64,000 nucleotides of DNA from Eubacterium sp. 14-2. GTDB taxonomy: Bacteria > Bacillota > Clostridia > Lachnospirales > Lachnospiraceae. The stretch lies in contig NZ_KE159567.1 in NCBI RefSeq assembly GCF_000403845.2, positions 347,670 through 411,669 of the forward strand. The letters are read 5' to 3'. Position numbers and translations under genes: made by a program. Shown here piece after piece: positions 9,537-58,504 of the stretch. Under the pieces are notes generated by a model. The model saw only the letters and a program-made list of their open reading frames with translations, ran no database searches and was not told where the DNA came from. How positions within the stretch are numbered: the stretch's first letter is position 1; each line of letters starts with the position of its first letter.

Positions 9537-9569
9537 TGTTGTACAGGTTCACTTATGCAAAAGGAAAGA

Positions 9570-9612
9570 GCCGCTCAGGCGGAGAATCCTGCAAAGCAGG
9601 ATTCTTTGTTCT
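9570..9612. repeat. Modular palindromic repeat, copy D (partial)
   Basis: GGCGGAGAATCCTGC-AAA-GCAGGATTCTTTGTTCT. It is identical to the third module of the long copy near 56.9 kb except for the three loop bases (TTT there). It sits directly past the proS stop and could serve as its terminator region. Confidence 0.75.
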
Positions 9613-9619
9613 GTCATTC

Positions 9620-11149: not shown

Positions 11150-11390
11150 CAAGAAAAGCCGGATATCCAATCCCGTCAGGGACCGGAAATCCGGCGGTAC
11201 CACCCTTATTAACAGCAAATCTGCTGTTCTCTCAATTGCCTTAACGCGGCAGTACGTCGTATTTTCATACGCGGCTCAAAGGCGGGTTCCGGGCAATGGT
11301 ATGGGAAATCTTTCACCGTTGATTTCTTCTCTGTACATCTTCCTGTCCGTACTGATCCTTTTCTTCGCCAGTTTTCTGTTTTTACTGGTA
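11150..11390 (-). promoter_or_regulatory. T-box riboswitch of proS
   Basis: Reading on the minus strand, the leader contains the conserved T-box bulge AAGGGTGGTACCGCC (11193-11207). A terminator hairpin GCCGGAT...ATCCGGC ending in TTTTC (11154-11195) partly overlaps it. Upstream lies a long stem I region with a GGTGAAAG-type distal element. Uncharged tRNA-Pro pairing with the bulge would favour the antiterminator. I could not place the proline specifier codon with certainty. Confidence 0.93.
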
Positions 11391-43701: not shown

Positions 43702-43731
43702 CACGAAAGGCCGGCCCCGGCGAAGCGAGGG

Positions 43732-43780
43732 TACTCGCGCAAATTGTATTATGTCGCTAAAGCGACCGTACTCGGCGCAT
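43732..43780. repeat. Modular palindromic repeat, copy C (middle module)
   Basis: TACTCGCGC ... GTCGCTAAAGCGAC ... CGTACTCGGCGCA. The central palindrome GTCGCTAAAGCGAC is identical to that in the long copy at 56.9 kb, and the flanks match the copy at 58.4 kb. It lies just after uvrA. Confidence 0.75.
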
Positions 43781-47963: not shown

Positions 47964-48030
47964 TTTTTATCTTACAGGAAAGATGCTTTCACGCATTAGC
48001 GTGACAAGGTCTTTCCTGTTAAGATAAAAA
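47964..48030. repeat. Modular palindromic repeat, copy E (first module)
   Basis: A long stem TTTTATCTTACAGGAAAGA paired with TCTTTCCTGTTAAGATAAAA around a loop containing CACGCATTAGCGTGAC. It corresponds to the first module of the copies at 56.8 and 58.3 kb. It may act as the terminator of the Lnt-like gene. Confidence 0.75.
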
Positions 48031-48053
48031 AGGCTGTCCGGATGGACAGCCTT
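48030..48053. terminator. Second hairpin after the Lnt-like gene
   Basis: AAGGCTGTCC-GGAT-GGACAGCCTT directly abutting repeat copy E. The trailing T run is weak. The rest of the gap up to 48.29 kb holds no gene. Confidence 0.5.
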
Positions 48054-56713: not shown

Positions 56714-56780
56714 GGAAAAAATGTCTGGAAATGGTTCTGTTGAAGAAAGAGAACCATTTTCAGAGGATAATTATTTTGAG

Positions 56781-56808
56781 AAAAAATCCGGCAAAGCCGG
56801 ATTTTTTC
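56781..56808 (+). terminator. Terminator of the ABC transporter operon
   Basis: AAAAATCCGGC-AAA-GCCGGATTTTTT, about 70 bp after the last stop codon. Symmetric, so it can act both ways. Confidence 0.9.
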
Positions 56809-56810
56809 TG

Positions 56811-56958
56811 TTCTACAGGAAATATTCTGTCACGCTAAAGGGCGAAAGTGTCTTTCCTGTAGAATAAAAGACAATTATCACACTGCGGCGGAAAAGAAAT
56901 ATGTCGCTAAAGCGACCCGCCGCAGGCGGAGAATCCTGCTTTGCAGGATTCTTTGTTC
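56811..56958. repeat. Modular palindromic repeat, copy A (complete)
   Basis: Three stem modules in order: (1) TTCTACAGGAAA...TTTCCTGTAGAATAAAA with CACGCTAAAG in the loop; (2) TGCGGCGG...CCGCCGCA enclosing GTCGCTAAAGCGAC; (3) AGAATCCTGC-TTT-GCAGGATTCTTTGTTCT. It follows the transporter terminator directly. Confidence 0.8.
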
Positions 56959-57094
56959 TCCTGGGGACCAACAGGAAAATCCTAAGAATTTCTCCGGTTC
57001 TTTTAGAAATTTTTAAGAAAATATCGGTGGAATCCCTGTGGAAAGTGTGATACCATAAAATCTGCCGGGAGACATTTTTCGTAAAATAACCATA

Positions 57095-57823
57095 TTGAAA
57101 TTGAAGAAAGAAAAATTTTTGCATCTGCTGTTTCCGCCAAGATGCCCCATCTGTGACGGGATTTTGTTTTCGTCTTTCGCCGTACCGGAGGAATTAATCT
57201 GCAAAAGCTGCCGAAAGCAACCGGAGTATGTGAAAGAACCGGTGTGCAGCCAGTGCGGAAAGCCGCTGGAAAATGAACGGGAGGAATACTGTTATGACTG
57301 CAGCCGGAACAAAAGGGCTTTTGTCCAGGGCAGAGCATTGTGGGTATACAGAGGAGTGGTCAGAGATTCCCTGTATCGGTTTAAATATCAGAACCGCCGG
57401 GAGTATGCGGAATATTACAGTGCTGAACTGGTGAGAGTGTATGGCGGCTGGATAAAAGAGCGGGGAATTCAGGCAGTGGTTCCCATACCTCTTTCCGGAA
57501 AGCGTCGGAGACAGCGGGGATTTAATCAGGCTGAACTGGTGGCCAGGAAAGTTGCAAAGAGAATGAATCTGCCTGTATATGGCAGACTGCTGATTCGCAC
57601 CAGGGACACAAAAGCACAGAAGGAATTAAATGACCAGGAGCGGAAAAATAATCTGAAAAGGGCTTTTAAAACCAGAAAAAATAAGGTACAATTAAACCAT
57701 ATCTTACTGATAGATGATATTTATACGACCGGAAGTACGATGAACGAGGCCGCGAAGGAATTAAAGCGGGCCGGGGCAGAACAGGTCTATTGCCTGAGCA
57801 TCAGTATCGGCAGAGGATATTAG
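57095..57823 (+). CDS. comFC: ComF-family phosphoribosyltransferase-like protein
   Basis: 242 residues. The N-terminal double zinc finger has CPICDG, CKSCRKQ, CSQCGKPL and CYDCSRN. The C-terminal phosphoribosyltransferase fold has GFNQAELVARKVAK and the PRPP loop ILLIDDIYTTGSTMNEAAKE. ComFC acts in DNA uptake for transformation; here no comFA is adjacent. TTG start without a strong ribosome site, so the exact start is uncertain. It is followed by yvyF as in Bacillus subtilis. Confidence 0.88.
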   Translation: MKLKKEKFLHLLFPPRCPICDGILFSSFAVPEELICKSCRKQPEYVKEPVCSQCGKPLENEREEYCYDCSRNKRAFVQGRALWVYRGVVRDSLYRFKYQNRREYAEYYSAELVRVYGGWIKERGIQAVVPIPLSGKRRRQRGFNQAELVARKVAKRMNLPVYGRLLIRTRDTKAQKELNDQERKNNLKRAFKTRKNKVQLNHILLIDDIYTTGSTMNEAAKELKRAGAEQVYCLSISIGRGY

Positions 57824-57836
57824 GAGGAAAGAGGAT

Positions 57837-58244
57837 ATGGAAGTAAGAAATTGCAGGGGATGTGGAAGACTCTTTAATTATCTGCAGGGACAGCCTTTGT
57901 GTCCGGGCTGCCTGGCAGAACTGGAAGAAAAATTTCAGGAGGTAAAGGAATACCTGCGGGTACATCCAAAAGCACCGTTAAACGAGATCGCAGAGACAAA
58001 TGAGGTCAGTGTGAAGCAGATCAAACAGTGGGTGAGAGAGGAGCGTCTTGCATTCACAGAAGAATCACAGATTACTCTGGAATGTGAAGCATGCGGCGCA
58101 AGAGTTCTGAGCGGAAGGTTCTGTAATAACTGCAGATCACATCTGCAGAATGAACTTTCCGGTGCGATGAAACGCCCCACTGCCACTGTGGCGCCGAAAA
58201 AGAATGGCTCTACCAAAGACAGAATGAGGTTTTTGGACAACTGA
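57837..58244 (+). CDS. yvyF: YvyF-like flagellar operon protein (TIGR03826)
   Basis: 135 residues. An N-terminal zinc finger CRGCGRLF...CPGCLAEL, a helical middle with an HTH-like stretch EIAETNEVSVKQIKQWVREE, and a second zinc finger CEACGARV...CNNCRSHL. This is the YvyF family, in Bacillus coded between comFC and flgM. Here no flgM follows. AGGAGG precedes the ATG, 13 bp after comFC. A regulatory or assembly role in flagellation is inferred only from genomic context in other species. Confidence 0.82.
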   Translation: MEVRNCRGCGRLFNYLQGQPLCPGCLAELEEKFQEVKEYLRVHPKAPLNEIAETNEVSVKQIKQWVREERLAFTEESQITLECEACGARVLSGRFCNNCRSHLQNELSGAMKRPTATVAPKKNGSTKDRMRFLDN

Positions 58245-58323
58245 AACTGCCGGCAGGATATGTGTTTGCGGACGGGTGCCAGAGAGGTACGGTTCGCCGG
58301 GGCATGTTCTGCCGGTTTTGTTC

Positions 58324-58504
58324 TTCTACAGGAGGACCCTGTCACGCTAAAGCGCGAAAGTATCTTCCTATAGAATAAAAATAATATGCACACTCGTGCG
58401 AATAGAAAATGTCACTGCGTGACCGCACTCGGAGCAGCAAACCGTCCAGGTCCCTCATGAGTGAGGGATTCAGGGAGCCCCTGCGGACCTGGCCGCTTTG
58501 TTCT
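58324..58504. repeat. Modular palindromic repeat, copy B
   Basis: Module 1 (TTCTACAGGA...TCCTATAGAATAAAA), module 2 (CACTCGTGCG...GTCACTGCGTGAC...CGCACTCGG), and a variant third module (CCAGGTCC...GGACCTGG around CCCTCATGAGTGAGGG), ending in the same TTTGTTCT as copies A and D. It fills most of the gap after the YvyF-like gene. Confidence 0.75.

Follow-up and report, generated by a model that had tools for sequence, protein, structure and literature searches.

The window, by which we mean the whole 64,000-nucleotide stretch of DNA that was analyzed, contains members of a family of palindromic intergenic repeats that are probably non-autonomous modular mobile elements of ~130 to 185 bp, settling immediately downstream of the T-runs of intrinsic terminators. 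The units keep one address and one orientation, fold into a structure whose base pairs covary, have empty sites in congeners, show no target-site duplication longer than ~2 bp at three junctions, and form arrays. Movement of the units is what these sequences suggest. If terminators are the target, the family ties transcription termination to mobility, and in gut bacteria, dozens of genes in each genome would have their 3′ ends remodeled; a testable question is then raised, namely, which enzyme recognizes a hairpin followed by a T-run. The original prediction, made from the letters of the window alone, had proposed a modular family with conserved stems and had read hints of mobility and tandem growth in it. 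The present analysis supports both, the mobility indirectly, and adds the terminator address, the key feature that had been missed.

Two long copies and the anatomy of a unit

Copies A and B (Table 1) lie where the original prediction had placed two long repeats, and they are two members of one interspersed family. The first part of each is a hairpin, here called module A, and the last is a terminator-like hairpin with TTTGTTCT, an ending previously claimed for both copies and found in both. Module A is the sole module that they have in common; the two copies differ in the types of their B and C modules. Each copy folds better than all 200 of its dinucleotide shuffles (z = −7.7 for copy A and z = −2.9 for copy B), with the minimum-energy fold of copy B matching the module borders only in part. 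Shorter copies predicted near positions 9570, 43732, and 47964 also exist, the second of them folding weakly (z = −2.0, with 4 of 200 shuffles as good). For the third, no obvious minus-strand gene was found in the window ahead of the hairpin upstream of its module A. Copy B had been described as beginning just after a repeat-like end. It does start directly after a terminator TTTTG, but the preceding T-run is the upstream gene's own terminator rather than a duplicated end, and the hairpin of that terminator is recognizable without the element in related species.

Table 1. Repeat copies, their modules, and neighboring features in the window (R1, covariance model of modules B and C)
Feature	Position	Strand	Basis
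Copy A, whole	56809..56959		
Host intrinsic terminator directly upstream of copy A, AGAAAAAATCCGGC/GCCGGATTTTTTCT plus T-run	56779..56809	+	14-nt arms, 100% complementary
Copy A module A, long-loop type, hairpin TGTTCTACAGGA..TCCTGTAGAATAAAA	56809..56869	+	sequence, fold
R1 match in copy A	56873..56960		108.4 bits
Copy A linker and module B, CTGCGGCGG/CCGCCGCAG stem, 11-nt purine-rich 5′ bulge, inner GTCGC/GCGAC hairpin	56873..56925	+	R1 match, fold
Copy A module C, terminator-like hairpin AGAATCCTGC/GCAGGATTCT plus TTTGTTCT	56930..56959	+	fold, R1 match
Copy B, whole	58321..58504		
Host terminator of gene upstream of copy B, ACTGCCGGCAG..CTGCCGGTTTTG	58246..58320	+	hairpin recognizable without element in congeners
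Copy B module A, long-loop type	58321..58380	+	sequence
Copy B D-type B module: TGCACACTCGTGCG, AATAGAAAAT bulge, GTCACTGCGTGAC, CGCACTCGGAGCA	58387..58436	+	sequence; D-type relatives
Copy B D-type C module, large terminator-like hairpin with TTTGTTCT at end	58438..58504	+	sequence, fold
Isolated module C and remnant of B	9566..9613	+	R1, 37.1 bits, E 6e-9
Fragment reading like D-type B module, without module A	43720..43780	+	weak R1 match, 15.4 bits, E 0.015
Module A, then only short D/E-like start	47964..48030	−	sequence, fold
Terminator-like hairpin AAGGCTGTCC/GGACAGCCTT plus T-run, directly upstream of module A at 47964..48030	48030..48053	−	sequence, fold
T-box leader	11175..11374	−	Rfam RF00230, 116.3 bits

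A complete unit can be read as hairpin A, hairpin B, and hairpin C with its T-run. The order of its parts is T-run, stem X, an AGGAAA..TTTCCT apex, the complement of X, A-run, linker, hairpin B, hairpin C, and T-run. In hairpin A, the T-run pairs with the A-run, and the apex loop is either short or long, the long form having CACGCTAAAGCGTG; the linker that follows is short and ends in about AT(C/G)CGCA. In hairpin B, only the 5′ side carries a bulge, which is purine rich, and thus, the fold belongs to one strand. Hairpin C resembles an intrinsic terminator and has a T-run of its own. At least three B/C types follow module A in the own genome. Copy A has the B+C type and copy B the D type, and a further one, the E type, reads GCGCAGCTCGCG.. 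..GCGCATTCTTTTTT. The modules are also reused independently, as A is joined to the B+C, D, or E type and C, A, and B-like modules occur in isolation. In other genera, the architecture of the unit is kept and its stems are altered. At one locus elsewhere (L381; G014:C1:2184900-2185700), the hairpin A loop of one unit has a palindromic insert of ~120 bases.

A genome-wide count, proposed in the original prediction against the prospect that only the window's copies exist, returned many more than the window holds. With copy A as the query, blastn of the own genome (3.99 Mb, 4 contigs) gave 81 match places, some of which are palindrome echoes. R1, which was built from 35 copies, gave at least 103 places at an E value of ≤0.1, at least 64 at an E value of <1e-4, and at least 27 above 60 bits among the 150 of 2,347 first-look candidates that were scored, with at least one place being an opposite-strand echo. 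Two module-A consensus strings found 96 distinct places by blastn. Twelve places below 28 bits were set aside, and the 84 copies kept, all at different genome places, are a minimum, since the search covered the window and the surroundings of earlier matches only.

The repeat family is structurally constrained, and its base pairs covary strongly. In the 35-row alignment, 9 of 24 pairs were altered on both sides; the outer B stem, whose sequence these copies conserve, contributed none of the nine. In 37 more diverse matches, from 35 loci picked by the analyst, 23 of 24 pairs were altered on both sides. Both-side changes occupied 134 cells of that alignment versus a shuffled mean of 25 and 12 to 24 in slid controls, and the covariation score was 0.489 versus at most 0.104 in slid controls; the alignment was fitted to the R1 structure and therefore leans towards it, and the margin over slid partners is large. 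Covariation was thus present in the test for compensatory changes that the original prediction had suggested, and the contrary outcome did not occur.

A second pattern of paired change was found in hairpin A of genome G031, in which 15 of 21 copies were usable (four were without hairpin A in the test, one had an unlike arm, and one was misassigned). The 15 copies have 15 different X arms, and 115 of 120 positions are complementary within a copy. Re-pairing of X arms between copies gave a mean of 57 complementary positions, and none of 5,000 re-pairings was as good. Whereas the C arm and the start of B reach pairwise identities of 89% and 83%, respectively, X reaches 43%. As the outer hairpin A arm is different at all 15 copies with its complement kept, copying from the target was at first suggested. 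This idea was rejected as a general rule: copies at unrelated sites in G043 and in the own genome mostly have common arms, and the right flank gave no clear match (left arm versus right flank in G031, p = 0.05 with the T-run and p = 0.20 without it). Array units at one G043 locus (L225; G043:C97:75500-78200) have a common AGTCCATAGG arm, most G043 copies seen having ATTCCATAGG, and the common arm suggests local duplication or exchange.

The terminator address

Module A directly follows, on the 3′ side, the T-run of an intrinsic terminator. Of 84 module-A copies, 68 have a hairpin of −12 kcal/mol or lower that ends at the T-run, versus 5 of 79 on the mirror side, 49 of 1,191 other window T-runs (≥4), and 104 of 810 shuffles. 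At −15 kcal/mol, the corresponding counts were 54 of 84, 0 of 79, 18 of 1,191, and 30 of 810. The shuffles were mononucleotide shuffles of the same upstream stretches, and since they often passed at the loosest cutoff of −6 (154 of 405), the strict cutoffs are the ones to trust. The −12 kcal/mol test was failed by 16 of 84 copies, some of them through limits of the test. The upstream terminator belongs to another unit in 19 of 84 copies, and it is by units standing behind other units' terminators that arrays arise. Where the terminator has a T-run and does not come from another unit, 49 of 62 copies pass at −12 kcal/mol. In 69 of 83 copies, the nearest ORF upstream runs in the same direction as the unit (44 ++, 24 +−, and 1 without a downstream ORF), as counted by crude ORF calling and with one copy too near an edge; by the same crude calling, 10 copies overlap an ORF of >100 codons. 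The exactness of the position could partly reflect where units survive.

Carriage of the repeats was surveyed in relatives. By blastn with 8 candidates scored per genome, 40 of 99 genomes match: the own genome and 27 of 28 congeners, 11 of 32 from other genera of the family Lachnospiraceae, and 1 of 38 from outside it. The distribution across the Lachnospiraceae is patchy, with R1 matches in 54 of 150 genus representatives. In a sample of the order (246 genomes), 18 match, 11 within the family and 7 outside it at E values of 6e-10 to 7e-4. Petralouisia muris and Lachnospiraceae strains 3-1 and A2 are among the named relatives of the window locus, several of which are from mouse gut. B+C is also present on one plasmid (Roseburia) and matches 17 phage records, which are unannotated fecal contigs; a second query gave 16 phage records.

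Empty sites, junctions, and competing readings

Three sites were readable at their junctions. At site B, the closest species (L092, with an identical reading in G028) has other units, and six named relatives (L093 to L097 and L105) have the gene's terminator hairpin without a unit, the T-run being weak in three of the six. The own site reads ..GGTTTTG, the unit, and then TATGGAAATTTCCGG, and the empty site (L093) reads ..GGTTTTGCTATGAAAGTCTCCGG. A unit of G028 (L318; G028:C1:2571200-2574300) is located in a multi-copy repeat, the empty versions of which read TTCTTTTCTTTTTATAGTGACAAAGCG (L331, another species); the filled left junction reads TTCTTTTCTTTTTAT and then TCTATTAGG, and the filled right junction reads GGATTCTTTCTT and then GTAGTGGTAAAGCG. 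At the third site, L081, the terminator has the form GAGAATTGCC..CTCTTTTT, and the own genome has a B+C unit behind it, G028 has an E unit, and G024 has a D array containing an assembly gap; G009, G023, and G015 have the site without a unit. No target-site duplication longer than ~2 bp was found at these three junctions, the flanks of which have diverged, and the right-hand T-run appears to arrive with the unit. The repeat that houses L318, seen also at L331 and L332, is a separate multi-copy repeat found in the genus; it has a terminator-like hairpin, GAATCCCCCGACTGTA..TACAGTCGGGGGATTC, and is itself a target of the element. Another genome, G018, reads like G028 where compared. Its draft contigs C37, C76, and C104 (L325, L334, and L330), at two of the G028 sites, end inside a unit; G018 therefore supplies no empty site, and units break this assembly.

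Turnover was followed between the own genome and its sister species G028, in which at least 8 of 9 queried own B+C sites were placed by at least one flank. One of the eight, L081, is occupied in G028 by another unit type, and one, L076, is the only clean empty terminator. At the other six, either the unit is absent and the terminator is changed, degenerate, or missing, or there is only a remnant, or only one flank. Site A has different unit types in the two sister species. With sites A and B counted in, both species have a unit at 3 of 10 sites, always of different types; shared occupancy is therefore not rare, and replacement in place is indistinguishable at shared sites from two insertions.

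If the units are mobile, their working form would be a single-stranded fold, either single-stranded DNA or RNA, and the mobilizing machinery would recognize a hairpin and then a T-run. Because each unit ends in a hairpin and a T-run, insertion would re-create the target, which would explain both tandem growth and why one site can hold different B/C types. Little harm would come to the host from a unit that lands behind one terminator and supplies another. The mobilizing enzyme would act in trans or may have been lost in the own genome. Tentatively, the process may be a cassette-like recombination in which any intrinsic terminator, as a folded hairpin and T-run, serves as an attachment site. 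Units would carry their own terminator as the next site, enter as folded single strands, build arrays, and be exchanged in place by an uncharacterized host or trans-acting recombinase. Such folded single-strand recombination is suggested by the hairpin and T-run target, the one-strand fold, the same-orientation arrays, the new target at the unit end, and junctions at which no duplication was seen.

An immobile module, that is, a structured 3′-UTR RNA or tandem terminator retained by selection where genes end and propagated through duplication and gene conversion, is unlikely. The original prediction had offered a 3′-end RNA module as one reading, and it would fit the address because a unit stands behind a terminator and has a terminator-like hairpin as its last part; strong one-strand covariation and the occupancy of sites A and B in both sister species are also in its favor. 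It is less easily squared with the single unit, of another type, among eight own B+C sites in G028, with differing unit types at one terminator, or with carriage by only some genera of the family.

We give a still lower chance to an ordinary MITE moved by a DDE transposase, in which target-site duplications would be short or eroded, the target preference would be for AT-rich DNA, and T-run and A-run would be terminal inverted repeats. Module A is indeed a palindrome between a T-run and an A-run, and size and copy number fit MITEs. Complete units, however, have unlike ends (hairpin A versus hairpin C), the target is a hairpin and T-run rather than AT-rich DNA, and no duplication longer than ~2 bp was seen at the three junctions, so that the MITE of the original prediction is not supported in its classical form.

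Candidate enzymes and known systems

A mobilizing gene was sought in two families, Y1_Tnp (PF01797) and the reverse transcriptase family RVT_1, and none of either was found in the own genome (G000). Y1_Tnp matched 5 of 14 control genomes and had no match in G009, G022, G133, or G156, all multi-copy hosts. Among the 26 genomes searched, Y1 genes were present in 15, including multi-copy G014, G024, and G028, and also in several genomes without unit matches; RVT_1 was present in 24. Copy number bore no relation by eye to Y1 or reverse transcriptase in these 26 genomes. REP/RAYT, IS200/IS605, and group II intron mobilization therefore lack an enzyme here, unless it was recently lost.

RNA-mediated insertion, either group IIC intron-like or by target-primed reverse transcription, with the 3′ U-run of the unit annealing to the A-run strand of the terminator, is thus very improbable: the own genome has no RVT_1 despite its many similar copies. 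What speaks for it is that a DNA stem-loop is the integration site of group IIC introns (PMC10190682), that reverse transcriptases are widespread among the genomes searched, that the unit closes with the kind of terminator-like hairpin expected at an RNA 3′ end, and that no duplication was seen. The REP-like reading of the original prediction, palindromic elements derived from REP/RAYT or IS200/IS605 and moved by a Y1 HUH transposase, would suit strand-specific hairpins, the unduplicated junctions, and the Y1-bearing multi-copy hosts, but with Y1 missing from the own genome and four other multi-copy hosts and present in genomes without units, it is the least credible and, for the own genome, largely refuted unless the enzyme was recently lost.

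The repeat family was not found described among the PMC titles and abstract openings listed, and it could be in the supplements of a structured-RNA catalogue (PMC8040213). A scan of the window and 12 loci at Rfam gathering scores returned two T-box leaders and nothing else; one lies in the window and the other in L058, and both are distinct from the element. Weaker matches on the element were taken as chance, the best of them being mir-4679 on the AT-rich palindrome of module A (25.4 bits versus a gathering score of 88, E 0.006) and DUF3800-I RNA (RF02969; 18.6 bits versus a threshold of 44.2, E 1.1 to 1.7).

Group IIC introns prefer terminators and are not known to duplicate their target. Integration at a DNA stem-loop (PMC10190682) would be a further likeness to the present repeats. 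Unlike those introns, the element gave no Rfam intron match at gathering scores in the window and 12 loci and resides in a genome without RVT_1. Integron cassettes with attC sites have structured hairpins, same-orientation arrays, and a single folding strand. The repeats may be likened to them in the structured hairpin at the unit end and ahead of the unit, in the arrays, and in the folding of one strand, and they would differ in that no gene was seen inside units and no attC boxes were noticed.

Small non-autonomous repeats are common in bacteria, and we know of few with an address this exact. Compared by description, the family would belong among the small, modular repeats that are non-autonomous, with BOX and SPRITE as its closest analogues. 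The BOX element of Streptococcus pneumoniae (boxA/boxB/boxC) has terminal inverted repeats and causes target-site duplications (PMC3049150). Like the present units, BOX elements are small modular intergenic repeats with predicted stem-loops that are non-autonomous and occur in clustered copies (PMC3049150); unlike BOX, the units have unlike ends, no duplication seen, and a terminator T-run as their address. The pneumococcal SPRITE, an 18-bp duplex with a U-rich tract, is likewise a terminator-like repeat near gene 3′ ends with AAAA/TTTT ends (PMC3049150), whereas the present units consist of three hairpins and lie behind a separate host terminator. We conclude that, on these descriptions, the terminator address and the absence of visible duplication set the family apart from both BOX and SPRITE.
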